Below are positions 10,259-20,751 of a stretch of 23,756 bases of DNA, in pieces. A program made the translations under genes and the position numbers. The notes under the pieces were generated by a model that saw only the letters and a list, made by a program, of their open reading frames with translations, did no database searches and was not told where the DNA came from. How positions within the stretch are numbered: the stretch's first letter is position 1; each line of letters begins with the position of its first letter. The stretch comes from a virus: positions 1 to 23,756 of IMG/VR virus record IMGVR_UViG_3300032331_002486; one strand, given 5' to 3'.

Positions 10259-10699
10259 CTAGTCGGCCAAATTGGCGACGTTTTCCAACGCGAAACAAAG
10301 GAACTGAGGTTCCCCCTTGTCGGGGGTATAGTCGTGAATGGTGGCGAGTTCCTTGGGGGTCGCTTCGCGTCCGTCCACAAGGTAGCGCGTGACCCGCTTG
10401 GCGGACGTAGGAACGGCGGCCAGATACAAGGCCCCGCTTTCCTTGTGCATGACCAGCCCGTCCTTGACCCAAGTGAACCACGGGGCCTTTCCCGCAGGGG
10501 CTTCCCCTGTCCGCTCCGGGAGTACGTTGGAGTACGTCTCGGGGCCAGCGACCGTCACGGTGATGCGGTGATCACGGGTCACACGGCCAAGGAGGGGATT
10601 GAGGGGAACGCCAGCGCGGCCCCCCTTGTTCATCTTGTGCTCTCCAGTCAAGAGGATGGTGGCGAGGCGACCGGCGCGGATAGTAGTGGTATCGATCAT
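10259..10699 (-). CDS. Conserved phage protein of unknown function, GC-rich paralogue
   Basis: The product is 146 aa and clearly a paralogue of the 145-aa protein at 11977-12414. Both start MI(D/N)T.TI(R/K)AG and share MNKGGR, NP.LGRVTR.HR, PWF and KDGLV.HK, with about half of all positions identical. I start it at the ATG at 10699, because homology begins there and an upstream in-frame GTG would add 41 residues unlike the paralogue. The coding sequence is strongly GC-rich, whereas the paralogue is AT-rich. Short beta-type segments suggest a small single-domain protein; no catalytic motif is seen. The gene ends in its own terminator and is preceded by a leader shared with the gene at 11254. 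Confidence 0.82.
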   Translation of the reverse strand: MIDTTTIRAGRLATILLTGEHKMNKGGRAGVPLNPLLGRVTRDHRITVTVAGPETYSNVLPERTGEAPAGKAPWFTWVKDGLVMHKESGALYLAAVPTSAKRVTRYLVDGREATPKELATIHDYTPDKGEPQFLCFALENVANLAD

Positions 10700-10768
10700 G
10701 TTTTTGTTTTTTAGTGTCATCGTCATTGATGACGAGAAGACAATCGCACGGGCGCATTTGATTGTCAC
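10700..10768 (-). promoter_or_regulatory. Conserved leader and probable promoter, copy 1
   Basis: This 5' region matches the one at 11255-11325. It contains GTGACA (10763-10768), a degenerate -10 (GATTGT) 17 bp later, and a perfect 23-bp block (10712-10734) holding the hairpin TCGTCAT-CA-ATGACGA. An A-rich run then leads to the ATG. There is no Shine-Dalgarno site. The hairpin lies where an operator or a translational control site would act. Confidence 0.55.
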
Positions 10769-10842
10769 GGAAAAAATGAAAGAAAAACAAAAAAATTTTC
10801 GAGCGTGGCGCACACTCCCCAAGGCGCGTCAAGCGAAAAATC

Positions 10843-10885
10843 CACAAAAAATTGTCAAGGAAAAAATGCACAAAAAATTGTCAAG
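10843..10885 (-). repeat. Tandem TTGACA-containing repeats upstream of 10699
   Basis: A 17-bp block (plus strand CACAAAAAATTGTCAAG) occurs at 10843-10859 and again at 10869-10885, a 26-bp period. A third, degenerate TTGACG lies at about 10827. On the minus strand each gives a TTGACA box, so these look like stacked -35 elements or operator sites. Confidence 0.6.
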
Positions 10886-10892
10886 CTCAAAA

Positions 10893-10929
10893 GAGTTGCA
10901 AGAATCGGGGACTCCGTTTTCTGCAACTC
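10893..10929. repeat. 37-bp dyad element, copy 1
   Basis: Arms GAGTTGC and GCAACTC are separated by exactly 23 bp, with a G-rich then C-rich centre (GGGGACTCC). It lies between the genes at 10997-11254 and 10259-10699, both leftward, and upstream of the promoter region of the latter. Confidence 0.9.
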
Positions 10930-10944
10930 TCCTTTTCAAACAAG

Positions 10945-10983
10945 TTGGCACGGTCCCTGCTTCCCTAGCAAGAGCCGTGCCAA
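10945..10983. repeat. Second dyad family (TTGGCA...TGCCAA), 39 bp, copy A
   Basis: The outer stem is TTGGCACGG (10945-10953) with CCGTGCCAA (10975-10983). An inner stem TGCT/AGCA encloses TTCCCT. It is directly 3' of the leftward gene at 10997 and may also end its transcript, though no strong T-run follows. Confidence 0.75.
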
Positions 10984-10996
10984 GTCTAGCCTTGGG

Positions 10997-11254
10997 TCAC
11001 TCTGCGAAAAGATCGGCTTTGGCGCGGGAGTGGACAAGCATGGCATGAGTCTTGCTCACCTCCGTGGGAATGAAGGCGAGGCGGTAGGTCATGAGATTGA
11101 GAGCATCCTTGATGTCTTGCAATTGGCGCTTGCGGTTGGCGATCAAGGAAGGCTTGTCTTCAAGGAAAACGATGTCAGTCTCCAAGGCGACCAGTCCGCC
11201 AATCAAGGCGGCGCGGACTTCGGTGGCTTGCTCGGCGGTGATGATGTTTTGCAT
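10997..11254 (-). CDS. Small helical protein of unknown function
   Basis: The product is 85 aa, starting MQNIITAEQATEV. I use the ATG at 11254 because the shared 23-bp leader ends just upstream; a longer frame would translate that leader. The sequence is nearly all helix-forming, with a central segment NRKRQLQDIKDALNLM resembling in style the C-terminal half of the 79-aa protein at 13426 (LNRLTSAKQKLQ). Both may belong to one family of small phage helical proteins, but the match is weak. The coding sequence is GC-rich. The gene forms its own unit, flanked by dyad elements on both sides. Confidence 0.7.
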   Translation of the reverse strand: MQNIITAEQATEVRAALIGGLVALETDIVFLEDKPSLIANRKRQLQDIKDALNLMTYRLAFIPTEVSKTHAMLVHSRAKADLFAE

Positions 11255-11325
11255 GATGTTTTGTTTTATAGTGTCATCGTCATTGATGACGGGAACACTT
11301 TCGCACTTTCGAATCTCATTGTCAC
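11255..11325 (-). promoter_or_regulatory. Conserved leader and probable promoter, copy 2
   Basis: Same design as 10700-10768: GTGACA at 11320-11325, a weak -10 (GAAAGT) after 17 bp, the 23-bp block at 11269-11291 with the CGTCAT-CA-ATGACG hairpin, then TATAAAACAAAAC before the ATG. The hairpin block is perfectly conserved while flanking bases differ, which points to selection. Confidence 0.55.
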
Positions 11326-11390
11326 CAACTTTCTCAAAGAATCTTTGAGTACCTAATTGAAAGACCAGCACGTTTCATGCCAAGTCTAGG

Positions 11391-11428
11391 TTGGCACACT
11401 CTTTGCTCCCCAGCATAGACTATGCCAA
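11391..11428. repeat. Second dyad family, 38 bp, copy C
   Basis: TTGGCA (11391-11396) and TGCCAA (11423-11428) flank an inner TGCT/AGCA pair around CCCC. A right half-site ending in TGCCAAGTCTAGG abuts it on the left. Confidence 0.75.
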
Positions 11429-11441
11429 GTCTCCTCTCCGA

Positions 11442-11478
11442 GAGTTGCTAGAGTTGGGGTCCCCTTTTCCTGCAACTC
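11442..11478. repeat. 37-bp dyad element, copy 2
   Basis: Perfect 7-bp arms GAGTTGC/GCAACTC with a 23-bp core containing GGGGTCCCC. It lies between two copies of the TTGGCA dyad. Confidence 0.9.
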
Positions 11479-11490
11479 TCCGTTTCTAGG

Positions 11491-11528
11491 TTGGCATGGC
11501 TTATGCTCCCCAGCACGAATCGTGCCAA
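11491..11528. repeat. Second dyad family, 38 bp, copy D
   Basis: TTGGCA (11491-11496) and TGCCAA (11523-11528) enclose TGCTCCCCAGCA. It starts exactly 100 bp after copy C. A further left half (TTGGCACGGAACTTGCTTCC) follows at 11533. Confidence 0.75.
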
Positions 11529-11600
11529 GTCGGTTGGCACGGAACTTGCTTCCTCTTATACTACTATAAGCAAATTAGTGTTAAATCCTTATATATATAC

Positions 11601-11629
11601 AAAAAATCCCCTGTACTAGTACAGAGGAT
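11601..11629 (-). terminator. Rho-independent terminator for the gene at 11711
   Basis: On the minus strand ATCCTCTGTAC pairs with GTACAGGGGAT around a CTAG centre, followed by TTTTTT. Confidence 0.8.
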
Positions 11630-11710
11630 CTGGTATTATTTGTTATTTGCGGATTTAATGTTTAATATTAGCAACGCAACCAAATATAAATATCAGGATA
11701 AATAGTATAA

Positions 11711-11908
11711 TCATAGCTCGTCCCTATTGTATTTGTATTGCAATTTGGATAGGGCTTCTGTTATATGTTGCTTCTTTTCATTCCAGATAGAATGATCTGT
11801 TTTAATATTCTGACATGATTGTATTAGTTTATCGCATTCTTGTATAGCTTGTTCTAGTACTATCTGCAAATGAACCATTTCAATATGAGTAAGAGAAGTG
11901 TCAGGCAT
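11711..11908 (-). CDS. Small helical protein of unknown function
   Basis: The product is 65 aa: MPDTSLTHIEMVHLQIVLEQ, then EQAIQECDKLIQSCQNIK and a charged helical C-terminus. No family is recognised. The regular heptad-like spacing of Leu, Ile and Val suggests a coiled coil or small helical bundle. The start follows TATATAAACACT without a Shine-Dalgarno site, the same A-rich start context as its leftward neighbours. It lies 68 bp downstream of the 145-aa paralogue gene and probably shares its transcript. The 3' UTR carries the CAAATAA motif and ends in a good terminator. Confidence 0.65.
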   Translation of the reverse strand: MPDTSLTHIEMVHLQIVLEQAIQECDKLIQSCQNIKTDHSIWNEKKQHITEALSKLQYKYNRDEL

Positions 11909-11976
11909 AGTGTTTATATATAAGGGTTTTAGTATTAAATGCGCGTTTATAGTATTCGCGCCCCACTGTTTATCAA

Positions 11977-12414
11977 TTACTCGGCAATGTTAACAACATT
12001 CTCAATAGCAATAGTGAGAAACTCGGCTGGCTCACTAGCTGGCTTGTACTTATACAAGGTTTCTAGTTCTTCTTCTGTCATAGGGCGACCGTCTAATAAA
12101 TATTCAATCTTACCAACATTGCTAGTAGGAATACCAGCGATATACAATTGGTTGGTCTGTTTATGAACAACGAGACCGTCTTTAATAAAACGAAACCAAG
12201 GCTCTTTACCCGCTATCTCATTACCCTTACGAGTTTGGATATTAGTATAAGTTTCCTCACCGGCAATTGTAATAGTAAAACGGTGATTCCTAGTGACACG
12301 CCCAAGAAAGGGATTTATAGCAATACCCTTGCGCCCACCTTTATTCATAGATAGCTCGCCCTGTAGTAGTATAGTGGCGATCTGACCGGCTTTGATAGTT
12401 GCAGTGTTAATCAT
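11977..12414 (-). CDS. Conserved phage protein of unknown function, AT-rich paralogue
   Basis: The product is 145 aa and paralogous to 10259-10699 along its full length; the shared start MINTATIKAG fixes the ATG at 12414. Conserved blocks include MNKGGRKG, NPFLGRVTRNHR, AGEETYTN, KDGLVVHKQTNQLYIAGIP and a C-terminal IAIENVVNIAE. The alternating hydrophobic pattern suggests a beta-rich fold. The two copies differ sharply in base composition, suggesting separate acquisition from different genomes rather than recent local duplication. Expression should come from the promoter at 12444-12471, and the gene at 11711 may be co-transcribed. Confidence 0.82.
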   Translation of the reverse strand: MINTATIKAGQIATILLQGELSMNKGGRKGIAINPFLGRVTRNHRFTITIAGEETYTNIQTRKGNEIAGKEPWFRFIKDGLVVHKQTNQLYIAGIPTSNVGKIEYLLDGRPMTEEELETLYKYKPASEPAEFLTIAIENVVNIAE

Positions 12415-12443
12415 ATTGTTTATAAATAAGTGACGTTGTTGTT

Positions 12444-12471
12444 TATATAAGAACCAAACTGACTATGACAA
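12444..12471 (-). promoter_or_regulatory. Probable promoter of the gene at 12414
   Basis: Minus strand TTGTCA (12466-12471), 16-bp spacer, TATATA (12444-12449), then a 29-base A-rich leader ending TATAAACAAT before the ATG. Confidence 0.6.
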
Positions 12472-12559
12472 TTTAACATACTGCTATATATATACAATAA
12501 CTAAATCTACTTTAATTTTCTACGTTAACGGAGGCTTGGCACGGCATCTGCTTTCCCGA

Positions 12560-12596
12560 GAGTTGCAAGTTTTGGGGTCTCCGAAATCCGCAACTC
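12560..12596. repeat. 37-bp dyad element, copy 3
   Basis: Perfect arms with core GGGGTCTCC. It directly abuts a left half-site of the second dyad family (CTTGGCACGGCATCTGCTTT) at 12535. Confidence 0.9.
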
Positions 12597-12729
12597 TTTT
12601 TTGCTTGACAGGTTTTGAATTTTTTAGTAAACCGCGAAACTTTTTTATATACATATATAAGAGAAGTCACTATTTGTTATTTGATCATTTATTATTTAAT
12701 ATTTGCTGATTTAATATTTAATGTTTGGC

Positions 12730-12762
12730 AAAAAAAATCCCCGCTGTATTGCTACAACGGGG
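12730..12762 (-). terminator. Rho-independent terminator of the 13214-12782 unit
   Basis: On the minus strand CCCCGTTGTA pairs with TACAGCGGGG around GCAA, followed by ATTTTTTTT. The plus strand also has a short T-run, so it could act in both directions. Confidence 0.85.
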
Positions 12763-12781
12763 TTTTGTATTTATTACTATT

Positions 12782-12985
12782 TCACCAATCTGAATCTTGA
12801 CCAGTGGGGTCTTCGTCCCACTCGCGTTGCCACTCAGAATGACAGGGCTGGCAAACCGCGCTCCGTGCCTTTGGGGGCATCAAAACGCTGCAACGGGCGC
12901 AATGGAAGCGCTCTGCGCCGTTTTCGTCGATGACAGGGCATCCGCCAGCTTCGTGCCCACAACACGGATAATCTTCACAAGCCAT
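12782..12985 (-). CDS. Small Cys-rich probable zinc-binding protein
   Basis: The product is 67 aa with nine Cys and three His arranged as knuckles: CCGHE near residue 8, C16, then HCARC (28-32) and CQPCH (45-49). This could bind two zinc ions. The C-terminus is acidic and Trp-rich (EWQREWDEDPTGQ). It is GC-rich compared with the flanking sequence. It follows the gene at 13005 by 19 bp, so both are probably on one transcript ending at the terminator at 12730. The start context TTTAATAACAAT is A-rich without a Shine-Dalgarno site. The function is unknown. Confidence 0.72.
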   Translation of the reverse strand: MACEDYPCCGHEAGGCPVIDENGAERFHCARCSVLMPPKARSAVCQPCHSEWQREWDEDPTGQDSDW

Positions 12986-13004
12986 ATTGTTATTAAATAG
13001 TGAT

Positions 13005-13214
13005 TTAGTTTATAGAACCATCGGGTTCAATTTCACGATACTCAGTAGAGAAACGAGTAACTCGCTTGACCATCACGATGGTCCCAAGATGCTCCGTGCC
13101 TTGCGCCGGTTGATTGTTGGCATCCGGTTCAAACGGGAGCCAAGTTGAGAAACGGAACCCTTTCTTGCCAAGGGCGGTTTCGGCTTTGCTTTGGGCGGCA
13201 GTGGTTTGATACAT
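13005..13214 (-). CDS. Small protein of unknown function
   Basis: The product is 69 aa: MYQTTAAQSKAETALGKKGF followed by a beta-type segment TIVMVKRVTRFSTEYREIEP. A small alternating alpha/beta or beta-hairpin fold seems likely; no family is recognised. It is the first gene of a two-gene leftward unit with the Cys-rich protein at 12782. The A-rich start context (AAATAAAAAATCACT) matches the neighbours. A GTGACA box (13292-13297) with TAATCA 17 bp later lies 54 bp upstream of the ATG. Confidence 0.68.
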   Translation of the reverse strand: MYQTTAAQSKAETALGKKGFRFSTWLPFEPDANNQPAQGTEHLGTIVMVKRVTRFSTEYREIEPDGSIN

Positions 13215-13268
13215 AGTGATTTTTTATTTCGTTGTTAACTACGCGCACAAGATGACTCATTTTCTTTC

Positions 13269-13297
13269 TGATTACAAGGGAAAACATGATTTGTCAC
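13269..13297 (-). promoter_or_regulatory. Probable promoter of the 13214-12782 unit
   Basis: Minus strand GTGACA (13292-13297), 17-bp spacer, TAATCA (13269-13274). The GTGACA box recurs upstream of 10699 and 11254. Confidence 0.5.
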
Positions 13298-13339
13298 ACA
13301 AAAGTAACAAAGGCACTTGGCACAGTCTCTGCTCTCAGA

Positions 13340-13376
13340 GAGTTGCAAGAGTTGGGCACCCAGAAATCCGCAACTC
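13340..13376. repeat. 37-bp dyad element, copy 4
   Basis: Perfect arms, core GGGCACCCAG. A left half of the second dyad family (CTTGGCACAGTCTCTGCTC, from 13317) abuts it, the same arrangement as copy 3. The terminator of the gene at 13426 follows immediately. Confidence 0.9.
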
Positions 13377-13377
13377 T

Positions 13378-13406
13378 AAAAACCCTATTGTATTACTACA
13401 ACAGGG
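13378..13406 (-). terminator. Rho-independent terminator for the gene at 13426
   Basis: On the minus strand CCCTGTTGTA pairs with TACAATAGGG around GTAA, then TTTTT. Confidence 0.8.
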
Positions 13407-13425
13407 CTATTCTATTACTACTATT

Positions 13426-13665
13426 TCACCATTTTTCAATAACAAAAGGTCTTAAGAGCGCTCCCCTTTGAAGCTTTTGTTTAGCACTAGTCAAACGATT
13501 TAGACGCGCAGTCCAAAACTCTGAGCTTTCAGCAGTGGTACACTCTTCAATGCGTTTAATAATAAAGTCCAGATTACTATTAATAGCACAAAATAAATCA
13601 AAGCTTTCGTCCCAATCAAGGTACTCGACTTGGGTTTCTGTTTCGTTTTCGATAGTTTCAATCAT
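13426..13665 (-). CDS. Small acidic helical protein of unknown function
   Basis: The product is 79 aa. The N-terminus is acidic (MIETIENETETQVEYLDWDE). The C-terminal half is a helix-rich segment FIIKRIEECTTAESSEFWTA followed by RLNRLTSAKQKLQR. The latter half resembles small helical proteins common in phages and, faintly, the protein at 10997. No catalytic motif is visible. It has its own promoter (13699-13726), an A-rich leader ending AAAAACAAT at the ATG, and a dedicated terminator: a complete single-gene unit flanked by 37-bp dyads (copies 4 and 5). Confidence 0.7.
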   Translation of the reverse strand: MIETIENETETQVEYLDWDESFDLFCAINSNLDFIIKRIEECTTAESSEFWTARLNRLTSAKQKLQRGALLRPFVIEKW

Positions 13666-13698
13666 ATTGTTTTTAAATGAGTATTAACTTACGATAAG

Positions 13699-13726
13699 AC
13701 CTTAACACAGCCACACAGGATGTCAA
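13699..13726 (-). promoter_or_regulatory. Promoter of the gene at 13665
   Basis: Minus strand perfect TTGACA (13721-13726), 16-bp spacer, TAAGGT (13699-13704), then a 33-base leader rich in A and lacking a Shine-Dalgarno site. Confidence 0.75.
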
Positions 13727-13760
13727 AATTTATTTTTGATCAATTTACATACCTAATCGA

Positions 13761-13797
13761 GAGTTGCGCCAATCGGGGTCCCCGAATTCTGCAACTG
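13761..13797. repeat. 37-bp dyad element, copy 5
   Basis: Arms GAGTTGC/GCAACTG (outermost base mismatched), core CGGGGTCCCCG. It lies between the terminator of the gene at 13866 and the promoter of the gene at 13665. Confidence 0.9.
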
Positions 13798-13806
13798 TTT
13801 TTGTAT

Positions 13807-13838
13807 AAAAACCCCCGCTATAGTAGTATAACGGGGGT
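13807..13838 (-). terminator. Rho-independent terminator for the gene at 13866
   Basis: On the minus strand ACCCCCGTTATA pairs with TATAGCGGGGGT, loop CTAC, followed by TTTT. Confidence 0.85.
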
Positions 13839-13865
13839 CTTATCTGTTATTTATTTAAATAGTAT

Positions 13866-14084
13866 TTAAAAGATTTCGTTGCAAACTGAATTGTTTTGTT
13901 CTGTTCTAATATTAGCAATAGTGTGAAAGATATCCAAAGCTTCTTCCCAAGTATTTAAATCAGAAACAAAATGAATCCAATCTTCTTTACTATAACATTC
14001 AACATAGACTTGATAACCATATCCTTTATTATAATTATCTTCCGCCAGTTGCTTCAGTTGCTCAATCCATTTTGATTTATCCAT
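13866..14084 (-). CDS. Small protein of unknown function, probably leaderless
   Basis: The product is 72 aa: MDKSKWIEQLKQLAEDNYNK, then a Tyr-rich segment YGYQVYVECYSKEDWIHFV and WEEALDIFHTIANI. No family is recognised. The start at 14084 is chosen because a promoter (TTGACT, 16-bp spacer, TATCTT) ends 8 bases before this ATG. The longer open frame would begin upstream of the expected transcription start, and its extra residues (MQLSNLLTFSFFLLSWHP) come from promoter sequence. The unit is complete with dyad copy 6 upstream and a terminator downstream. It is AT-rich, unlike its divergent neighbour at 14302. Confidence 0.72.
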   Translation of the reverse strand: MDKSKWIEQLKQLAEDNYNKGYGYQVYVECYSKEDWIHFVSDLNTWEEALDIFHTIANIRTEQNNSVCNEIF

Positions 14085-14092
14085 AGGGTGCC

Positions 14093-14120
14093 AAGATAGC
14101 AAAAAGAATGAAAAAGTCAA
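14093..14120 (-). promoter_or_regulatory. Leaderless-type promoter of the gene at 14084
   Basis: Minus strand TTGACT (14115-14120), 16-bp spacer, TATCTT (14093-14098), 8 bases to the ATG. The -35 box lies 9 bp from dyad copy 6. Confidence 0.75.
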
Positions 14121-14129
14121 TAGATTTGA

Positions 14130-14166
14130 GAGTTGCAAGAATTGGGCTCCCCGAATCCTGCAACTC
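14130..14166. repeat. 37-bp dyad element, copy 6
   Basis: Perfect arms. In this copy the core also pairs well, so it approaches a continuous palindrome. It sits between divergent genes, 14084 leftward and 14302 rightward. Confidence 0.92.
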
Positions 14167-14198
14167 TTTTAGCTTGACTTCTTTTCTCTTGACTTGTG

Positions 14199-14216
14199 GG
14201 GCGAAGCGCCCTTTTG
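14199..14216 (+). terminator. Orphan terminator-like hairpin
   Basis: GGGCG-AAG-CGCCC followed by TTTT on the plus strand, with no plus-strand gene before it. Two TTGACT/TTGACTT boxes just upstream (14174, 14189) leave room for a very short transcript, or it may be the relic of a lost gene. Confidence 0.45.
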
Positions 14217-14266
14217 TTCTATTTAGGGGATATCGGACAATATTTGCGATTATTTGAAATAATTTT

Positions 14267-14294
14267 TTGACAATCTCCACGAATCTGATACCGT
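14267..14294 (+). promoter_or_regulatory. Leaderless-type promoter of the gene at 14302
   Basis: TTGACA (14267-14272), 16-bp spacer, TACCGT (14289-14294), then 7 bases to the ATG, which puts the predicted transcription start at the A of ATG. Confidence 0.78.
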
Positions 14295-14301
14295 AAGGAC
14301 G

Positions 14302-14598
14302 ATGAAACTAGAAACCAGCGCGAGCATCCAACGCAAGTTCACCTTTGAGATCCAACTTGAGGATCGGTACGACGTTTCCGAGATCGAAGTCCTTGTGGGC
14401 TTTGAGTGGGATTACGAGTGCAACCCTGACGAGATCCGAGGCACGGACTTCCTCGTCATCTCCGAAGTCATTTGGGATTGCGAAGGCTTCACTTGGGCAG
14501 AGGAGAAGGAGATCCAAGCCGCGATCTTCTCCCGCTACGAAGAGTGGACCCGTGAGACCGAAGAAGCCGAAAGAGAGGGTCGCTTGAACGTGGATTGA
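14302..14598 (+). CDS. Acidic protein of unknown function, leaderless mRNA
   Basis: The product is 98 aa and very acidic with many Glu and Trp. A beta-type N-terminal half (RKFTFEIQLEDRYDVSEIEV) is followed by DFLVISEVIWDCEGFTWAEE and a long charged helix with EEWTRETEEAEREGRLNVD. No family is recognised. The sequence is GC-rich and codon use differs from the AT-rich gene beside it. The unit is complete: promoter, start codon at the expected transcription start, gene, terminator (14618) and dyad copies 6 and 7 at the ends. High negative charge is a feature of DNA-mimic and anti-host proteins, but nothing here proves that role. Confidence 0.72.
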   Translation: MKLETSASIQRKFTFEIQLEDRYDVSEIEVLVGFEWDYECNPDEIRGTDFLVISEVIWDCEGFTWAEEKEIQAAIFSRYEEWTRETEEAEREGRLNVD

Positions 14599-14617
14599 AA
14601 AGTCAAGAAGAAAATCA

Positions 14618-14642
14618 CCCCGCTTCGGCGGGGCTTTTTTTT
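14618..14642 (+). terminator. Rho-independent terminator for the gene at 14302
   Basis: CCCCGC-TTCG-GCGGGG followed by CTTTTTTTT. The dyad copy 7 begins 3 bp further on. Confidence 0.92.
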
Positions 14643-14644
14643 GA

Positions 14645-14681
14645 GAGTTGCAACTTTCAGCCAGCCCGAATCCCGCAACTC
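14645..14681. repeat. 37-bp dyad element, copy 7
   Basis: Perfect arms, but the core (CAGCCAGCCCG) has lost most inner pairing while the 23-bp spacing is kept. This argues that the arms and spacing, not the inner stem, are selected. Confidence 0.88.
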
Positions 14682-14699
14682 TTTTTCTGAGAAAAAGTA

Positions 14700-14728
14700 T
14701 TTACAAGATTGGAGTTCCGTGTGAGACT
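14700..14728 (+). promoter_or_regulatory. Weak promoter of the gene at 14739
   Basis: TTTACA (14700-14705), 17-bp spacer, GAGACT (14723-14728), then 10 bases to the ATG. It matches the layout of neighbouring leaderless promoters, but the -10 box is poor. Confidence 0.45.
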
Positions 14729-14738
14729 CTTCCTCGTA

Positions 14739-15014
14739 ATGAAAACACAACACGACAGCATCGACACCGCCAGCGACCTCCGCGACCTCATCGCGCAGAC
14801 CCCCGAAGAGCTTGAGCCTTCTCGTCAAGACTCTGAGCCTTTGGTTGTGGTTGACGCGCAGTCCTTCCGCGAAATGCGCGTGGCTCTGAAAATGTACTTG
14901 TTCGAAATAAAGTACTTGACACACTACCGCCCAGAGTACCGGGAGAAGGTCGCCAAAGAGGCTCAAGACCTCTTGGACAGAACGGAATACGATAAAGTCA
15001 AGAGAATTTACTGA
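14739..15014 (+). CDS. Helical protein of unknown function
   Basis: The product is 91 aa beginning MKTQHDSIDTASDLRDLIAQ and ending in charged helices (YREKVAKEAQDLLDRTEYDK). The longer frame from 14709 adds ten residues encoded by promoter sequence, so I take the ATG at 14739, preceded by CTCGTA as in other genes of the series. No family is recognised. Like the genes on either side it is GC-rich and forms its own unit, with dyad copy 7 and a promoter before it and a TACG-loop terminator and dyad copy 8 after it. Confidence 0.7.
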   Translation: MKTQHDSIDTASDLRDLIAQTPEELEPSRQDSEPLVVVDAQSFREMRVALKMYLFEIKYLTHYRPEYREKVAKEAQDLLDRTEYDKVKRIY

Positions 15015-15022
15015 AAAATTCA

Positions 15023-15042
15023 CCCCGCTACGGCGGGGCTTT
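15023..15042 (+). terminator. Rho-independent terminator for the gene at 14739
   Basis: CCCCGC-TACG-GCGGGG followed by CTTT. Dyad copy 8 starts 2 bp after it. Confidence 0.85.
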
Positions 15043-15043
15043 A

Positions 15044-15080
15044 CAGTTGCGCGTTTCGGGCACCCCGAAGCTCGCAACTC
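15044..15080. repeat. 37-bp dyad element, copy 8
   Basis: Arms CAGTTGC/GCAACTC (outermost pair lost), core CGGGCACCCCG, then a long T-rich run leading to the next -35 box. Confidence 0.9.
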
Positions 15081-15098
15081 TTTTTTTTCTTTTTTCTT

Positions 15099-15127
15099 TT
15101 GACGAGTGGGCTGGTGTGCGCTAGGGT
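15099..15127 (+). promoter_or_regulatory. Leaderless-type promoter of the gene at 15134
   Basis: TTGACG (15099-15104), 17-bp spacer, TAGGGT (15122-15127), only 6 bases to the ATG. Confidence 0.75.
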
Positions 15128-15133
15128 TTGGGC

Positions 15134-15334
15134 ATGAAGAAAACGATTGAGTTCTTTCAAAAGGAAGTCTACGGCAACTCTTTGGAGTACATTGCCGACA
15201 AATCAGACGCAAAAATCATTTCCCAGTTGACAGGAAAGAAAACCATCACTAGTGTGGAGCGCGAGTTGATTCGCGACCTGTCTGGTGGGTTGGTCAACTT
15301 TAAACAAATTTTGCCCCCTTCGAATTTGAAGTGA
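15134..15334 (+). CDS. Small basic protein of unknown function, leaderless mRNA
   Basis: The product is 66 aa: MKKTIEFFQKEVYGNSLEYI, then ADKSDAKIISQLTGKKTITS and a helical C-terminus ending KQILPPSNLK. The start is fixed by the promoter, whose -10 box ends 6 bases upstream; an in-frame TTG two codons earlier would lie outside the transcript. Small proteins with a FF.KEVYG.-like start and TG.KTIT are common in large phages with no known role, so I call it a conserved phage protein with moderate trust. It is followed not by a standard TTCG hairpin but by an unusual duplicated hairpin region. Confidence 0.72.
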   Translation: MKKTIEFFQKEVYGNSLEYIADKSDAKIISQLTGKKTITSVERELIRDLSGGLVNFKQILPPSNLK

Positions 15335-15355
15335 GGGCGGGTTAAGGCAAGCGGC

Positions 15356-15464
15356 ATGGTACGCAGGGAGATCCTGCGGCGGGTGTTGATAGTTGGGCCT
15401 TTAGAAACACTGCTTTTTCGGTTAGATTCGTGTCAAATGGTACGCAGGGAGATCCTGCGGCGGG
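15356..15464. repeat. 28-bp perfect direct repeat, two copies 81 bp apart
   Basis: Copies at 15356-15383 and 15437-15464 start ATGGTACGCAGGGAGATCCT and are identical over 28 bp. The flanking bases differ. Confidence 0.9.
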
Positions 15465-15471
15465 GTTTTTT
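15443..15471 (+). terminator. Probable terminator of the gene at 15134
   Basis: CGCAGG-GAGAT-CCTGCG, then GCGGGG and TTTTTT. The first repeat copy at 15362 has the stem but no T-run. Confidence 0.6.
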
Positions 15472-15538
15472 GCAAAGAGTTTGTTGTGATTCTCTTTGAA
15501 GGTTTTAGCCCCCATGAAACAGACACGAATCTTTCCGA

Positions 15539-15575
15539 GAGTTGCACAAATCCGCCACCCCAAATCCTGCAACTC
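15539..15575. repeat. 37-bp dyad element, copy 9
   Basis: Perfect arms and exact spacing; the core (CCGCCACCCC) is degenerate. The -35 box of the lysozyme-like gene begins 7 bp after it. Confidence 0.88.
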
Positions 15576-15582
15576 TTTTCCT

Positions 15583-15610
15583 TTGACGGTTTTCCTAAAT
15601 CTGATAATGT
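15583..15610 (+). promoter_or_regulatory. Leaderless-type promoter of the gene at 15619
   Basis: TTGACG (15583-15588), 16-bp spacer, TAATGT (15605-15610), then TTCCCCGT and the ATG. Confidence 0.78.
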
Positions 15611-15618
15611 TTCCCCGT

Positions 15619-16011
15619 ATGAAAAACAAATCACTTGTGTTTACCCTTATTTGCTCATTCTCTTTGACAACCTACGGGAAAGTCACTGAAGAACTATTTT
15701 TCAAAGCCCTTGGCAAAGTCGAGGCTTCTGGTAATCCAAACGCCGTCAACAAAAGAGAACAGGCTTTGGGTATTTATCAAATTCGATTTGCTTATTTCAA
15801 AGATTCGGGCGTAAAAGCAAGCCATAAAGATGTATTTGACCCCAAGGTGGCAAAAATGGTTTGCAAAGCTTATTTCGCCCGATACGAGAAAAAGGCTCTT
15901 GACAATGGAGACTGGGAAGTGTTAGCTAGGCTGCACAACGCCGGTCCCAACTGGCGCAAGAATAAATCATCTACTGATAAATACTGGAATAACATTAAAA
16001 AGAACCTGTAA
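15619..16011 (+). CDS. Exported lysozyme/transglycosylase-like protein
   Basis: The product is 130 aa. It begins with a signal peptide (MKNKSLVFTLICSFSLTTYG: Lys-rich start, hydrophobic core, cleavage probably after Gly20). The mature part resembles a minimal SLT-type lytic transglycosylase: KVEASGNPNAVN supplies the catalytic Glu (about residue 35) and SG.P.AVN turn, ALGIYQI is the GxxQ substrate segment, and ARLHNAGPNW matches the (Y/H)NAG motif. The protein should cut peptidoglycan from the periplasmic side. The start is fixed by the promoter; the longer frame from 15496 reads through the dyad. It heads a four-gene rightward operon with a tiny membrane protein next, suggesting lysis or lysis control. 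Confidence 0.8.
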   Translation: MKNKSLVFTLICSFSLTTYGKVTEELFFKALGKVEASGNPNAVNKREQALGIYQIRFAYFKDSGVKASHKDVFDPKVAKMVCKAYFARYEKKALDNGDWEVLARLHNAGPNWRKNKSSTDKYWNNIKKNL

Positions 16012-16015
16012 TAAT

Positions 16016-16117
16016 ATGAGCAACAAGACTTTTGATAGAATTATAAATGCTGTAATTGTATCACTCACCATTGCTACTGTTGTTAGTGTTACTGTGGTTT
16101 ACAACATCATCTTTTAA
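16016..16117 (+). CDS. Tiny single-span membrane protein (33 aa)
   Basis: The frame reads MSNKTFDRIINAVIVSLTIA followed by TVVSVTVVYNIIF. A short polar N-terminus precedes about 24 hydrophobic residues, enough for one membrane span. It starts 4 bp after the stop of the lysozyme-like gene and ends 4 bp before the next ATG, a tight fit that supports real translation. Next to an exported cell-wall enzyme it could be a pinholin-like or lysis-accessory protein, but no family can be recognised at this length. Confidence 0.6.
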   Translation: MSNKTFDRIINAVIVSLTIATVVSVTVVYNIIF

Positions 16118-16121
16118 TAAA

Positions 16122-16403
16122 ATGGAACTCACTTTTCTTTCTGACCCCGGCCACGGTTGGCTTCGTGTTCCTCATAAATTACTTGAAGACTGGAATATTG
16201 ATATCTTAATATCAGAGTATAGTTATAGAACAAGAGATTTTGCTTACTTAGAAGAAGACTGTGATGCTTCTATCTTCATTGATGAAGCCAAGAAAAGGAA
16301 TTACAAATACTCTATCAATTACAAATTGATTAAAGACTTCGATTACTATCTCAAAAGCGTTGGCAATCACTATAGATTCAACAATAACCTAAGAACAGCA
16401 TGA
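16122..16403 (+). CDS. Conserved phage protein with N-terminal DPGHGWLRVP motif
   Basis: The product is 93 aa: MELTFLSDPGHGWLRVPHKL, then ISEYSYRTRDFAYLEEDCDA and SIFIDEAKKRNYKYSINYKL. Small proteins with an N-terminal DPGHGWL.V and YLEEDCDA block recur in many unrelated phages and plasmids, with no role established to my knowledge. I start it at ATG 16122, four bases after the stop of the tiny membrane protein gene; the upstream extension (LLLLLVLLWFTTSS) is an out-of-frame reading of that gene. The stop overlaps the next start (ATGA). It is AT-rich, in contrast with the neighbouring units. Confidence 0.8.
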   Translation: MELTFLSDPGHGWLRVPHKLLEDWNIDILISEYSYRTRDFAYLEEDCDASIFIDEAKKRNYKYSINYKLIKDFDYYLKSVGNHYRFNNNLRTA

Positions 16404-16588
16404 ATGGAGAACTAAAGATAACAATACAAGAAGTTGTAGACCTTCGTGTGGCATTAAATAATGCAGAACGCCGTATCAAAGAGTTAATGGCATTAAAGCA
16501 TGAAGACTGGCATAAATTGTATCATTTAGATATTGATTCAATAGAAAAAGGAAAAGAAGCTCTCACTAATATAATACAAAGAGATTAA
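16400..16588 (+). CDS. Small coiled-coil protein of unknown function
   Basis: The product is 62 aa: MNGELKITIQEVVDLRVALN then NAERRIKELMALKHEDWHKL and a helical end. Hydrophobic residues recur with heptad-like spacing, consistent with a coiled coil. The start overlaps the previous stop by 4 bp, indicating translational coupling. It is the last gene of the operon 15619-16588, which ends at the terminator at 16595. No function can be assigned. Confidence 0.7.
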   Translation: MNGELKITIQEVVDLRVALNNAERRIKELMALKHEDWHKLYHLDIDSIEKGKEALTNIIQRD

Positions 16589-16594
16589 ATCACA

Positions 16595-16615
16595 CCCGCT
16601 TCGGCGGGTTTCTCT
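16595..16615 (+). terminator. Rho-independent terminator of the 15619-16588 operon
   Basis: CCCGC-TTCG-GCGGG followed by TTTCTCTTT, directly abutting dyad copy 10. Confidence 0.88.
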
Positions 16616-16619
16616 TTGA

Positions 16620-16656
16620 GACTTGCAGACTCTGGGCACCCCGAATGCTGCAACTC
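16620..16656. repeat. 37-bp dyad element, copy 10
   Basis: Arms GACTTGC/GCAACTC: one arm has T-to-C... position 3 changed to C without compensation, so pairing is broken there. The core is GGGCACCCCG and the spacing is exact. Confidence 0.88.
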
Positions 16657-16663
16657 TTTTTCT

Positions 16664-16692
16664 TTGATTGTCGCGCCGTTTCTGATTACCTT
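16664..16692 (+). promoter_or_regulatory. Leaderless-type promoter of the gene at 16700
   Basis: TTGATT (16664-16669), 17-bp spacer, TACCTT (16687-16692), then GTCCCCG and the ATG. The -35 box lies 7 bp after dyad copy 10. Confidence 0.78.
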
Positions 16693-16699
16693 GTCCCCG

Positions 16700-17005
16700 A
16701 TGAAACTACTGACGAAACAACTCGCCGAAAAACTCAACAAGGCCGGTTCTGACGGCATGGTCCCCATTTGTAAGCTTTTCACCCCGTGGGGTGCCGCTAC
16801 TTGGTTGATCACTGGGATCGAAGGTGGCATCCTTTACGGGTTCGCTGACTTGGGCATGGGTTGCGTTGAATGGGGCGGGATCGCTTCCGTGGAAGAATTG
16901 GAAGCAATCAAGGGGCCGCTTGGAATGACTATTGAGCGCGACTTGTACTGGCAACCCAAAGAAGGCATGAACTACTTTGAGCTTGAAACCCTCGCGGCCA
17001 TTTAA
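16700..17005 (+). CDS. DUF2958-family protein
   Basis: The product is 101 aa. MKLLTKQLAEKLNKAG at the start, CKLFTPWGAATWLITGIEGG in the middle, then FADLGMGCVEWGGIASVEEL and IERDLYW near the end follow the order of the DUF2958 family, which is common on plasmids and phages and has no established function. The promoter fixes the start; the longer frame from 16616 is dyad and promoter sequence. It is GC-rich and followed after 12 bp by an AT-rich small gene, so the two-gene unit itself mixes compositions. Confidence 0.85.
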   Translation: MKLLTKQLAEKLNKAGSDGMVPICKLFTPWGAATWLITGIEGGILYGFADLGMGCVEWGGIASVEELEAIKGPLGMTIERDLYWQPKEGMNYFELETLAAI

Positions 17006-17017
17006 TAATAAATAAAC

Positions 17018-17212
17018 ATGAAAGACCTCACACTTCAACAGATACAAGCTAACTTAAAAGAATGGATGGGTGATAGTATAAAGCCCGATACCAGAAGCGG
17101 AAAACTTGCAGAGCGTACTTACATAAAGGCTCTTTTAGATACAGGCGCAAAAGTTCCACCGATTTGCATTATACTACTACAGAGTGGACGTAGTATTGTA
17201 AACTTTAAATAA
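17018..17212 (+). CDS. Small protein of unknown function
   Basis: The product is 64 aa: MKDLTLQQIQANLKEWMGDS, a central basic stretch KPDTRSGKLAERTYIKALLD and a hydrophobic end VPPICIILLQSGRSIVNFK. No family is recognised. It follows the DUF2958 gene by 12 bp (TAATAATAAATAAAC, A-rich, no Shine-Dalgarno site) and ends just before a TTCG terminator, so it is the second gene of that unit. Confidence 0.68.
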   Translation: MKDLTLQQIQANLKEWMGDSIKPDTRSGKLAERTYIKALLDTGAKVPPICIILLQSGRSIVNFK

Positions 17213-17220
17213 ATAACACG

Positions 17221-17240
17221 CCCCACTTCGGTGGGGTCTT
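17221..17240 (+). terminator. Rho-independent terminator of the 16700-17212 unit
   Basis: CCCCAC-TTCG-GTGGGG followed by TCTT, one base before dyad copy 11. Confidence 0.82.
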
Positions 17241-17241
17241 A

Positions 17242-17278
17242 GAGTTGCAGACTTTGGGCACCCCGAATGACGCAACTC
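17242..17278. repeat. 37-bp dyad element, copy 11
   Basis: Perfect arms, core GGGCACCCCGAAT, then nine T and the -35 box of the gene at 17324. Confidence 0.92.
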
Positions 17279-17285
17279 TTTTTTT

Positions 17286-17315
17286 TTGACTCTTTTTCCC
17301 ACTCAGTGCTACTGT
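17286..17315 (+). promoter_or_regulatory. Leaderless-type promoter of the gene at 17324
   Basis: TTGACT (17286-17291), 18-bp spacer, TACTGT (17310-17315), then GTCCGCGT and the ATG. Confidence 0.75.
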
Positions 17316-17323
17316 GTCCGCGT

Positions 17324-18196
17324 ATGAATAACACAGTTAAAAACGCTATCCGCCACCTCGTTTGCAAAGCCTATGATGCTTTCGCACAAAACAAAACAGA
17401 CATTGCCGTCACTTCTCTTCCCGGCTCTTCGTGGGAGTTTGAGAAATATGTGATAAATCACAAAGCTTATGGTGATACCTTTAAGAATAAATACTCTCTC
17501 GAAATGTCACTCTTTGAATGTGACTCACAACAATATCAAAGCAACCTGCGCCCCGTTTCTACTCTCTTTCCTCATAATAAGACTAGTGCTTATATACTTA
17601 ACTGCTCTGGTGTTACATACAAAAACGAATACATAAACGCCAATAGTGTTAAATCTCTCAAATCAAAAAACATTTTCGCATGGTTTGACTTCTGTGGTAA
17701 TCCTACAGAACACAATCTTGATTTGATTAAAACCGCCAAAGACAGAACAGTTACTTTCATTTTCACTTTTAACACTCACTGGCGGTGTGATAGTAACATT
17801 AGCCCGATTGTTATCAATACGGCTAACGAATACAACAAAGGATTTGCTATCCAATGTTATCTGTTGACTCTGGCAATAGAGCTTGGTTTGTCACTAGTCT
17901 GGTCGTTTGAATATGTGTCAAACCATAATCCTATGATGACTATCTGTGTCAGTAATGACATGAATGTTATAACAATTCGCTCTTTGCAGGTTAAAGACTT
18001 TATCACTCACGAAAAGAAAGACAATAAGGTCACTACTAATAAGACTAAATTGGTTCTCAATAAACGCGAATTGAGTGCTGTCTATGCGGATTTGAAAGAG
18101 CGTGTTAGTGATAGTGAAATCTGTAACAAACACAATATTAGTACAGGCACACTTGCCGCTTGTAAGGCTTGGATGACTATGTGGAAAGCTTGGTAA
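17324..18196 (+). CDS. Unrecognised 290-aa protein, possible nucleotide-fold domain and C-terminal HTH
   Basis: No family is recognised. The middle alternates strands and helices: SAYILNCSGVTYKN, then IFAWFDFCGNPTEHNLDLIK and VTFIFTFNTHWR. The strand-turn WFDFCGNP is reminiscent of the catalytic loop of Rossmann-type methyltransferases, but a SAM-binding GxGxG loop is not evident, so this is only a suggestion. The last 60 residues (LNKRELSAVYADLKERVSDS then EICNKHNISTGTLAACKAWM) look like a helix-turn-helix that could bind DNA. The start is fixed by the promoter at 17286-17315. The gene is a single unit ending at a strong terminator and dyad copy 12. Confidence 0.75.
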   Translation: MNNTVKNAIRHLVCKAYDAFAQNKTDIAVTSLPGSSWEFEKYVINHKAYGDTFKNKYSLEMSLFECDSQQYQSNLRPVSTLFPHNKTSAYILNCSGVTYKNEYINANSVKSLKSKNIFAWFDFCGNPTEHNLDLIKTAKDRTVTFIFTFNTHWRCDSNISPIVINTANEYNKGFAIQCYLLTLAIELGLSLVWSFEYVSNHNPMMTICVSNDMNVITIRSLQVKDFITHEKKDNKVTTNKTKLVLNKRELSAVYADLKERVSDSEICNKHNISTGTLAACKAWMTMWKAW

Positions 18197-18209
18197 TACA
18201 ATAACGACT

Positions 18210-18230
18210 GGGGGGCTTCGGCCCCCCTTT
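18210..18230 (+). terminator. Rho-independent terminator for the gene at 17324
   Basis: GGGGGGC-TTCG-GCCCCCC followed by TTT, one base before dyad copy 12. Confidence 0.88.
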
Positions 18231-18231
18231 A

Positions 18232-18268
18232 GAGTTGCGAGAGTTGGGCACCCGGAATCCTGCAACTC
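18232..18268. repeat. 37-bp dyad element, copy 12
   Basis: Perfect arms, core GGGCACCCGG. It lies between two convergent units, separating their terminators, so it is not tied to a promoter here. Confidence 0.92.
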
Positions 18269-18285
18269 TCTGGTTGTTTATAAAC

Positions 18286-18315
18286 AAGAACCCCCTAGTG
18301 TTAAACACTAGAGGG
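18286..18315 (-). terminator. Terminator of the leftward GP88 unit
   Basis: On the minus strand CTAGTGT pairs with ACACTAG (loop TTA in the middle), extended by CCC/GGG, then GGTTCTTG. The T-run is weak; the hairpin is strong and could work from both sides. Confidence 0.7.
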
Positions 18316-18341
18316 TGCTTTATTTGATATTTGCGGTGGTA

Positions 18342-18521
18342 TTATTTAATGTTTTTGTATCTGACAAATCTGGCGCGAATAGTATTAAGACCTTTTCTAA
18401 TTTGCGCTAGTTGCAATTTGAGTTTTGCTCGTTTGTTATTCAATAGCCTAATATTCTTTTTCATTTCTTTTAGGCTAGTGATTCGCTTTTCTAGTTTTGC
18501 TATTTGCTTATCTTGTGTCAC
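18342..18521 (-). CDS. Small Lys/Arg-rich coiled-coil protein (59 aa, GTG start)
   Basis: The frame starts with GTG at 18521 and reads MTQDKQIAKLEKRITSLKEM followed by KKNIRLLNNKRAKLKLQLAQ and a basic end. It is strongly basic with a clear heptad pattern, so a coiled coil that may bind nucleic acid is likely. AGAAGGA lies 7 bases before the GTG, the best Shine-Dalgarno site in the accessory region, which supports real translation. It overlaps the tiny membrane ORF upstream in another frame and shares the transcript of the GP88-like gene. Confidence 0.62.
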   Translation of the reverse strand: MTQDKQIAKLEKRITSLKEMKKNIRLLNNKRAKLKLQLAQIRKGLNTIRARFVRYKNIK

Positions 18522-18579
18522 TTTTATTTCCTTCTATTATTATTGTTAATAGTAATACTACTAATAGTAGTATAAGCAT
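18508..18579 (-). CDS. Tiny hydrophobic peptide (23 aa)
   Basis: The frame is MLILLLVVLLLTIIIEGNKS then DTR. It begins one base after the GP88 stop (TAAGATG) and overlaps the following GTG gene by 14 bp, so it sits as a coupling ORF between them. Fifteen consecutive hydrophobic residues suggest a membrane peptide. Low complexity (TAG/TAC-type triplets) leaves open that it is only the leader carrying the Shine-Dalgarno site of the next gene. Confidence 0.4.
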   Translation of the reverse strand: MLILLLVVLLLTIIIEGNKSDTR

Positions 18580-18580
18580 C

Positions 18581-19213
18581 TTAGTGTAGTTTGTAACTAA
18601 CGTTTGTTACTGATTTATCCCAACAGGCGCGGCAAGATAAACATTTATTGTCTTGATTTGACGCAGGGCAGGTAAACGAATTATCTTTAGACACACCAGA
18701 AGTAGTTAATCCTAATGTCTTTGCAATGCCACTCGGCGCATTGCCATTTATCATTAGAGAAGAAAGCCGAATAGTTAAATTAGAAGGAATAGCACCAAAC
18801 AATTTAACATAACTGCTAACAATAGAATACTCCCGAGTAGGAAGCCAGAACTTAATATGGGGAAGATTGTTTGCAATTTGTACTATCTTTGCCAAGTGAT
18901 TTACAGATTGAATATCACCACTATCATGCCAACGAAAGAATCCGCTTGTTTCTTTAGCACTAATGACAACAGTCATTGCTTCAACCCATTCGGGTTTATC
19001 AATAGAATCGAATCGTTTTTGTAAAGCGTTTCTGACATTGGGCATGTTATAGAAGCCCTTTAGCGCATAGCACTTAGAACAAACACTATTCTTCACAGAT
19101 ACTAGTTTACTGCCTGTCTTGCAATACTTTGCAGGAATAGAATAAGAACGGCAGGGCATTTTGCTGGGCGCGGAAAGGCCACCAACGAAGGCAAGAGCGT
19201 AGTCAAGATTCAT
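18581..19213 (-). CDS. GP88-family phage protein
   Basis: The product is 210 aa and carries the hallmarks of the phage gene-product-88-like family: KMPCRSYSIPAKYCKTGSKL, then SVCSKCYALKGFYNMPNV, a WVEAMTVVISAKE helix, FFRWHDSGDIQSVNHL, and IKFWLPTREYSIV. A C-terminal Cys cluster (CPASNQDNKCLSCRACW) follows. The conserved Cys residues suggest a metal or Fe-S site; the molecular role of the family is unknown. The start is fixed by the promoter at 19221-19249, whose -10 box ends 7 bases before the ATG, so the mRNA should be leaderless. Two small ORFs follow on the same transcript. Confidence 0.9.
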   Translation of the reverse strand: MNLDYALAFVGGLSAPSKMPCRSYSIPAKYCKTGSKLVSVKNSVCSKCYALKGFYNMPNVRNALQKRFDSIDKPEWVEAMTVVISAKETSGFFRWHDSGDIQSVNHLAKIVQIANNLPHIKFWLPTREYSIVSSYVKLFGAIPSNLTIRLSSLMINGNAPSGIAKTLGLTTSGVSKDNSFTCPASNQDNKCLSCRACWDKSVTNVSYKLH

Positions 19214-19220
19214 CGTGGAA

Positions 19221-19249
19221 AGGGTAGGCTAAGGCGTGAATCATTGCAA
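19221..19249 (-). promoter_or_regulatory. Leaderless-type promoter of the GP88-like gene
   Basis: Minus strand TTGCAA (19244-19249), 17-bp spacer, TACCCT (19221-19226), then TTCCACG and the ATG. Confidence 0.72.
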
Positions 19250-19273
19250 GCGTTTTTGTGCGAATTCTTTCGA

Positions 19274-19310
19274 GAGTTGCGCGTTTCGGGGTCCCCGTTT
19301 CTTGCAACTG
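19274..19310. repeat. 37-bp dyad element, copy 13
   Basis: Arms GAGTTGC/GCAACTG, core CGGGGTCCCCG fully paired. It lies between the terminator of the gene at 19405 and the promoter of the GP88-like gene. Confidence 0.92.
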
Positions 19311-19334
19311 TCTATGATTACTTAATTGTATAAC

Positions 19335-19362
19335 AAAAGAGCCCTAATTACTAAATCAGGGC
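19335..19362 (-). terminator. Rho-independent terminator for the gene at 19405
   Basis: On the minus strand GCCCTGATTTAGTAATTAGGGC folds as GCCCT/AGGGC extended by AT pairs, followed by TCTTTTG. Confidence 0.75.
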
Positions 19363-19404
19363 TTATTTGGCTTATTTGCGGTTAATCTTTTTAATATTTA
19401 GAGC

Positions 19405-19668
19405 TTAATGAAAGAAAATTCTTGATTCGTCTTTAAATGTAGCCTTGTCTCCAGCTTCATTCCATTCGATTCCATATGTCATTCCTTCTTCGACATGGTG
19501 CTTGTGTAGATAGTTGAAGCCTCTATATTGCCTTGCTTCCATCAATAGGTCAGTCACAAAGAACTGAAGAGTTCTACGTTGAATTGTGGCCTCATTCTTG
19601 CTATTGGTAAAGAAATCATTGGCTTTGAGTTTGATGCTTTCGAGACTGACAGTTTTGCGTTTATTCAT
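19405..19668 (-). CDS. Conserved small phage protein
   Basis: The product is 87 aa: MNKRKTVSLESIKLKANDFF, then RTLQFFVTDLLMEARQYRGF and NYLHKHHVEEGMTYGIEWNE. The block LL.E...YRGFNYL resembles a small protein shared by many phages (often LE..L..TGNY.GF.YL); its role is unknown. The ATG at 19668 is fixed by a promoter ending 8 bases upstream and by the CCCCGT before the start, the same signature as 15619. The longer frame to 19935 runs through the dyad, a terminator and the antisense of DUF932, so I reject it. Confidence 0.82.
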   Translation of the reverse strand: MNKRKTVSLESIKLKANDFFTNSKNEATIQRRTLQFFVTDLLMEARQYRGFNYLHKHHVEEGMTYGIEWNEAGDKATFKDESRIFFH

Positions 19669-19676
19669 ACGGGGAA

Positions 19677-19704
19677 ATAGTAATTCATCCCCATAGGAAA
19701 TCAA
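19677..19704 (-). promoter_or_regulatory. Leaderless-type promoter of the gene at 19668
   Basis: Minus strand TTGATT (19699-19704), 16-bp spacer, TACTAT (19677-19682), then TTCCCCGT and the ATG. Confidence 0.78.
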
Positions 19705-19712
19705 AGGAAAAA

Positions 19713-19749
19713 GAGTTGCAAGAAGTAGGCACCCCGGCTGGCGCAACTG
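19713..19749. repeat. 37-bp dyad element, copy 14
   Basis: Arms GAGTTGC/GCAACTG, core AGGCACCCCG, exact spacing. It sits between the DUF932 terminator and the promoter of the gene at 19668. Confidence 0.9.
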
Positions 19750-19760
19750 TCTGGAGACGC

Positions 19761-19785
19761 AAAAAGGGCATCCCGTAGGATGCCC
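19761..19785 (-). terminator. Rho-independent terminator for the DUF932 gene
   Basis: On the minus strand GGGCATCC-TACG-GGATGCCC followed by TTTTT. Confidence 0.9.
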
Positions 19786-19813
19786 CGTGCTGCTTCTATT
19801 TGGCGATCTGGCC

Positions 19814-20686: not shown

Positions 20687-20722
20687 TGAAGTGTTGATGT
20701 TAAGTGTTAACTGACGGGACAT

Positions 20723-20751
20723 ACCTTAGACGGCAATCAAATCGGCGGCAA
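20723..20751 (-). promoter_or_regulatory. Probable promoter of the DUF932 gene
   Basis: Minus strand TTGCCG (20746-20751), 17-bp spacer, TAAGGT (20723-20728), then 36 bases to ATG 20686. The same TAAGGT box and a leader of about 33 bases occur before the gene at 13665. Confidence 0.6.

Follow-up and report, generated by a model that had tools for sequence, protein, structure and literature searches.

In a viral DNA record, we found a cluster of short inverted elements, each half of which is, judged by its bases, a perfect sigma-54 (RpoN) -24/-12 element, TTGGCAYR-N5-TGCW. Such mirrored arrays are common to many unrelated phage groups and are essentially absent from bacterial chromosomes. They may amount to a previously undescribed kind of viral cis element that would capture the host sigma-54 holoenzyme (E-sigma54, i.e., sigma-54 with core polymerase) at the early/late gene junction, whether as a bidirectional hub, as a decoy or as an origin primed by transcription; we give this an even chance. 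In many bacteria, genes of stress, nitrogen, motility and repair are under sigma-54 control. Arrays of sigma-54 sites are not a generally known feature of phages, and no report of such arrays was found in the literature searched, the coverage of which was incomplete.

The window, by which we mean the whole stretch analysed, covers 23,756 bp and corresponds to one virus record in IMG/VR. Its genes were called by a home-made, imperfect caller based on amino-acid composition, and the strands of some of them were mis-called (10805-11356, 19787-20497). The nearest cultured phages gave very distant matches only, and the site locus had no match among 50,697 phage records. The window contains 11 half-sites, all TGGCA(C/T)(A/G)-N5-TGC(A/T), with 16 bases and a fixed spacing; they make up three full dyads, which are face-to-face pairs, and five single sites (Table 1). 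In 200 dinucleotide shuffles of the window, the mean was 0.085 sites and the maximum 3, and the palindrome appeared in none of them.

Table 1 Features of the window, with the 11 sigma-54-like half-sites
Feature	Position	Strand	Remarks
Terminase, ERCC4 nuclease, sigma-70 region 2-like protein, PhoH	left part		
Small genes, many	from 10.2 kb on		
Six tRNAs	right part		
Gene a	10259..10702	-	no Pfam or PHROG match
Half-site TTGGCACGGTCCCTGCT	10945..10961	+	left half of full dyad 1
Half-site TTGGCACGGCTCTTGCT	10967..10983	-	right half of full dyad 1; top matrix score in window
Site ATGGCATGAGTCTTGCT	11040..11056	+	within gene b, antisense; identical 16-mer in relative G004
Half-site TTGGCATGAAACGTGCT	11367..11383	-	full palindrome in some relatives
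Half-site TTGGCACACTCTTTGCT	11391..11407	+	left half of full dyad 2
Half-site TTGGCATAGTCTATGCT	11412..11428	-	right half of full dyad 2
37-bp dyad (first family)	11440..11480	.	array centre, between two palindromes; outer arms differ in relatives
Half-site TTGGCATGGCTTATGCT	11491..11507	+	left half of full dyad 3
Half-site TTGGCACGATTCGTGCT	11512..11528	-	right half of full dyad 3
Half-site TTGGCACGGAACTTGCT	11534..11550	+	single
Gene c	11977..12414	-	paralogue of gene a
Half-site TTGGCACGGCATCTGCT	12536..12552	+	single; faces 37-bp dyad about 6 bp off, away from gene c
Half-site TTGGCACAGTCTCTGCT	13317..13333	+	single; faces 37-bp dyad about 5 bp off, away from gene e

The first-pass annotation had described these elements as a TTGGCA...TGCCAA dyad family. 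The family is real and its full copies (10945-10983, 11391-11428 and 11491-11528) are exact, the last two starting exactly 100 bp apart as claimed; the half copies at 12536-12552 and 13317-13333 do abut 37-bp dyads, at a distance of 5-6 bp, with the same geometry in relatives (5, 5, 5, 5, 5 and 6 bp). The dyad is not the unit, however: each half is a separate element, and the halves at 11367-11383, 11534-11550 and 11040-11056 had been overlooked. The inner C-run, which had been noted in the full copies, is a local feature outside the motif, as the centres in relatives are AT, GGGG, GGT and others, with lengths of 2-6 bp.

To score the sites independently, we used a matrix made from the 42 intergenic sense motifs of an E. 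coli sigma-54 ChIP-seq study (PMC4591121). The top 11 positions in the window were exactly the 11 sites. Their scores ranged from 14.6 to 19.0; the E. coli sites that went into the matrix had a median of 16.3, and the next position in the window scored 13.6. The bases, the spacing and the degenerate positions are the same as those of the -24/-12 element, and TGGCAYR-N5-TGCW with its 16-bp spacing describes all 11 sites. In viral palindromes collected with the spacer unconstrained, the bases following TGGCA were C/T (252/264) and then A/G (250/264), as in sigma-54 sites. The base before TGC was T in 72% of viral sites (one weight per group) and in 69% of E. coli sites, whereas the last base differed, with T predominating in viral sites (86%) and A in E. 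coli sites (57%). What distinguishes the viral sites from the known promoter element is their arrangement, as they occur in inverted pairs and dense arrays and are unoriented to genes.

An alignment of 10 related arrays showed that the motif itself is conserved over its surroundings: identity to the window was 94% for the motif bases but 60% for the N5 spacers and 63% for the flanks, as expected for selection on GG/GC and the consensus bases with a free spacer. The spacers of the two arms are complementary at only 0-4 of 7 bases. Because they are neither complementary nor conserved, the palindrome does not form a hairpin, which rules out a hairpin, a terminator or an RNA element, and the true unit is the 16-17 bp half-site. 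Further copies are widespread in relatives, so that a local duplication, the outcome named in advance as fatal to the dyad family, is ruled out as well.

The half-sites are arranged in a characteristic way. Among neighbours within 25 bp, 205 pairs were face-to-face and 174 back-to-back, whereas only 38 were direct (379 inverted versus 38 direct). Gaps of 2-6 and 8 bp were preferred in face-to-face pairs and gaps of 5-10 and 16-20 bp in back-to-back pairs. There are about 2-14 sites per locus, and the arrays reach 14 sites with regular gaps, e.g., '< 10 > 5 < 10 > 5 < 10 >'. The array in the window reads '< 9 > 4 < 64 > 4 < 7 >', where a 37-bp dyad fills the 64-bp gap. Only 14 of 193 palindromes lie inside genes, although 81% of the sequence is coding.

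The palindrome pattern was present in at least 119 stretches of IMG/VR and a scrambled palindrome of the same form in none, while face-to-face pairs with gaps of 9-22 gave 21 matches and back-to-back pairs 84, enrichment being given here in counts only. In contrast, 84,980 prokaryote genomes contained only 5 stretches with the palindrome, mostly chance-like, and none of the 5 had the degenerate sigma-54 bases on both arms. Relatives picked by terminase similarity and not by the motif contained 146 sites, compared with 7 for the reversed motif. About 180 viral loci with clustered sites fell into 42 groups, defined such that loci of different groups share fewer than two proteins, a count that depends on protein similarity within the fetched loci. 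A terminase lies near the sites in 19 of the 42 groups; this association is not usable, since the presence of such genes is itself a criterion by which short viral contigs are chosen.

What would bind these sites? No rpoN domain was detected in 50 palindrome-bearing records, many of which are fragments, and an activator-domain match over the cut-off was found in only one of them, so a virus-encoded sigma-54 or activator was rejected. No DNA-binding gene family is common to the site neighbourhoods across the 42 groups. A uniform motif in 42 protein-unrelated groups, together with the lack of a common DNA-binding gene and of rpoN in the 50 records, points to a conserved host factor. One candidate that we rejected as a universal partner is the family of gene a (~147 aa). 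In 42 contigs its members lie next to the sites, at a median distance of ~120 bp; outside the window's group it occurs in a single contig, the otherwise unrelated L071. The leaders of genes a and b (10702-10768 and 11259-11325) are an 84% duplicate, with a small dyad, CGTCATTGATGACG, directly before the start codons. Elsewhere in the window, the motif GGTACGCAGGGAGATCCTGCGGCGG, with an inverted repeat inside, occurs in two copies (15356-15380 and 15438-15462). Cysteine-rich look-alike proteins are encoded in several groups, often near sites (window 18581-19213, which matches phrog_1392; L074 7531-8208; L080 507-1157), and close to the arrays of several unrelated groups there are genes for small, extremely acidic proteins (L018 2198-2380, L035 13169-13405, L020 6388-6579, L081 2400-2567).

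The 37-bp dyads beside the sites behave differently. In the window (10891-20828) and its relatives, their arms switch as a set between AGAGTTGC and ATAGTTTT, never both in one contig, while the inner GGG..CCC is kept. This looks like a virus-specific regulator changing its specificity. The sigma-54-like sites next to them are unchanged among the same close relatives. A constant motif in unrelated viruses beside fast-changing dyads suggests that the motif is read by a conserved host factor and the dyads by a regulator specific to the virus, and the proposal that the two are distinct families with different binding factors was therefore supported. Mycobacteriophage stoperators are an operator family with repeated intergenic sites through the phage genome; they are a better analogue of the 37-bp dyads, whereas the sigma-54-like sites are concentrated in a single locus and match the motif of a host sigma factor. 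Another large phage group (L035, L018, L052) has its own dyad, ~GTAAGTCCTTA..TAAGGACTTAC, beside sigma-54-like sites and upstream of strong sigma-70-type promoters.

The sites might instead bind some other dimeric protein, viral or host, such as a replication initiator, a segregation factor or a global regulator, and resemble sigma-54 elements by convergence. Strong inverted pairing with preferred spacings would be natural for a dimer, the density is typical of initiator arrays, the arrays of the clearest large records lie at GC-skew minima and, in one group, DnaA boxes lie beside the arrays. We nevertheless consider this unlikely, because the full sigma-54 motif is matched including its free positions, the motif stays constant in 42 groups while the dyad arms vary between close relatives, and neither a common neighbouring DNA-binding gene nor DnaA boxes near the sites of the window's group were found.

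The placement of the loci bears on the same question. In large records the sites lie mainly in one locus of a few kb (e.g., 7/7 within 3.6 kb of a 153-kb record), and in the clearest of these records the locus is the late/early strand switch, with structural genes on one strand and small genes on the other. It coincides with the cumulative GC-skew minimum in G020 and G010 and is consistent with it in G032 and G002, and the correspondence is weak in G047 and G049. Since the skew changes where the gene strand does, an origin is not separable from a transcription hub. Iteron-type origins are compact groups of bipartite sites, each of roughly 20 bp, in one place near the GC-skew minimum, mostly in the form of direct repeats to which a replicon-encoded initiator binds. 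The tight clustering at one locus is alike, but the viral neighbours are inverted and their motif is common to unrelated viruses; an iteron origin was rejected on the excess of inverted over direct neighbours. In L007, L011, L040, L060, L097 and L119, all of group 2, three TTATCCACA (DnaA) boxes are found less than 500 bp from a palindrome. DnaA boxes are enriched only in group 2, with a few in group 10, and a DnaA-box origin was rejected as a general explanation.

Another reading takes the sites as ordinary sigma-54 promoters for the small genes beside them, which would form the regulatory class of genes with A-rich leaders that the first-pass annotation had in mind. The perfect consensus and the intergenic placement agree with it, and at least one site (L035, 10893) lies a short way upstream of a start codon and points towards it. 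Single sites as a whole, however, point with the gene in 76 cases and against it in 68, whereas intergenic sigma-54 sites of E. coli are sense in 42 and antisense in 8 cases (PMC4591121; Fisher p about 9e-5). Isolated single sites in the window's group are mostly directed away from the gene, including the window's two isolated halves. As a set, the sites thus lack the direction towards downstream genes that sigma-54-dependent promoters have, and single ones may still be promoters. The leaders predicted from them are long (medians of about 190-270 nt), and in the group 1 examples read, strong sigma-70-type promoters lie between sites and genes. Palindromes are found in divergent gaps more often than expected overall (73 versus about 41), a preference that becomes weak after group weighting (31% versus 20%). 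A link to A-rich leaders is not supported either: in the window, gene d (about 12780-12985), gene f (13426-13665) and the gene at 11711-11908 have such leaders and no site of their own, and in other virus groups the sites lie upstream of strong sigma-70-type promoters. We therefore regard ordinary promoters as a highly improbable explanation.

We think there is about an even chance that the half-sites bind host E-sigma54 and that the locus is a virus-borne docking array. What the motif is, the conservation of its bases over their surroundings, the inverted pairing, the virus specificity and the clustering in one locus come from the computations; the occupancy, the transcription and the dependence on a host activator we infer as follows. 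The two sites of an inverted pair would have a shared or overlapping footprint, so that E-sigma54 could dock in either orientation but docking in one would exclude the other. For a face-to-face pair with a gap of g bp, the RNA starts are predicted to be 21-g bp apart and to run outward, which gives 13-19 bp for gaps of 2-8. Back-to-back pairs would fire outward, too; as both kinds of pair point outward, inverted pairing fits outward two-way transcription. The array would then be an orientation-neutral, bidirectional hub from which late and early gene modules diverge. With an active host activator (an enhancer-binding protein), outward transcripts would be made; with none, the array would hold E-sigma54 in closed complexes.

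A partial precedent is offered by bidirectional sigma-70 promoters, whose divergent starts are usually 18 bp and also 10 and 23 bp apart (PMC12825309). They arise from the symmetry of the -10 element and have been described in bacteria and archaea (see also Warman 2021, cited therein). Like the viral pairs, they are symmetric sites at which polymerase takes two mutually exclusive orientations, and the 13-19 bp of the viral pairs, a prediction from geometry only, falls within their 10-23 bp range, the usual sigma-70 spacing being 18. In the viral pairs, by contrast, it is the entire -24/-12 element that is mirrored, and such an arrangement is specific to viruses. Several points count against docking, among them the single sites' disregard of gene direction, the long predicted leaders, the promoters between sites and genes and the weak preference for divergent gaps after group weighting. 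Dense arrays have a site every 20-25 bp, so an array cannot hold polymerase on all its sites at once, and no enhancer-binding site was identified; the 37-bp dyads, which we looked at as possible activator-binding sites, adjoin the sites but also lie upstream of other genes without sigma-54 sites.

Alternatively, the array may work as a sponge: high-affinity, orientation-free sites, multiplied by amplification of the phage genome, would titrate the host's sigma-54 or E-sigma54, and either sigma-54-dependent host responses would be muted or core polymerase would be freed. Engineered decoy arrays for transcription factors use repeated high-affinity sites (PMC7826281), as the viral arrays might to titrate a host factor, but those decoys are engineered; a natural sigma-54 decoy in a phage was not found in the literature searched, of which the coverage was incomplete. 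The near-perfect consensus, the lack of orientation to genes, the dense overlapping arrays, the noncoding placement and, in the 50 records, the absence of virus-encoded sigma-54 and near absence of activators would all suit a decoy. It leaves unexplained the roughly tenfold excess of inverted over direct neighbours and the fixed place of the locus at the early/late junction, and the number of sites per locus is small. A decoy is thus a tentative and rather doubtful explanation, and a bidirectional hub is more likely than a pure decoy.

The presence of dense arrays in unrelated phages and of almost none in bacterial genomes suggests that phages engage or trap a transcription factor of the host in an unreported way. 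Should E-sigma54 bind to the arrays, they would be a widespread device for host takeover or for replication origins. Through the mirrored site, unrelated uncultured phages share a simple DNA signature, which may help to predict sigma-54 in their hosts.
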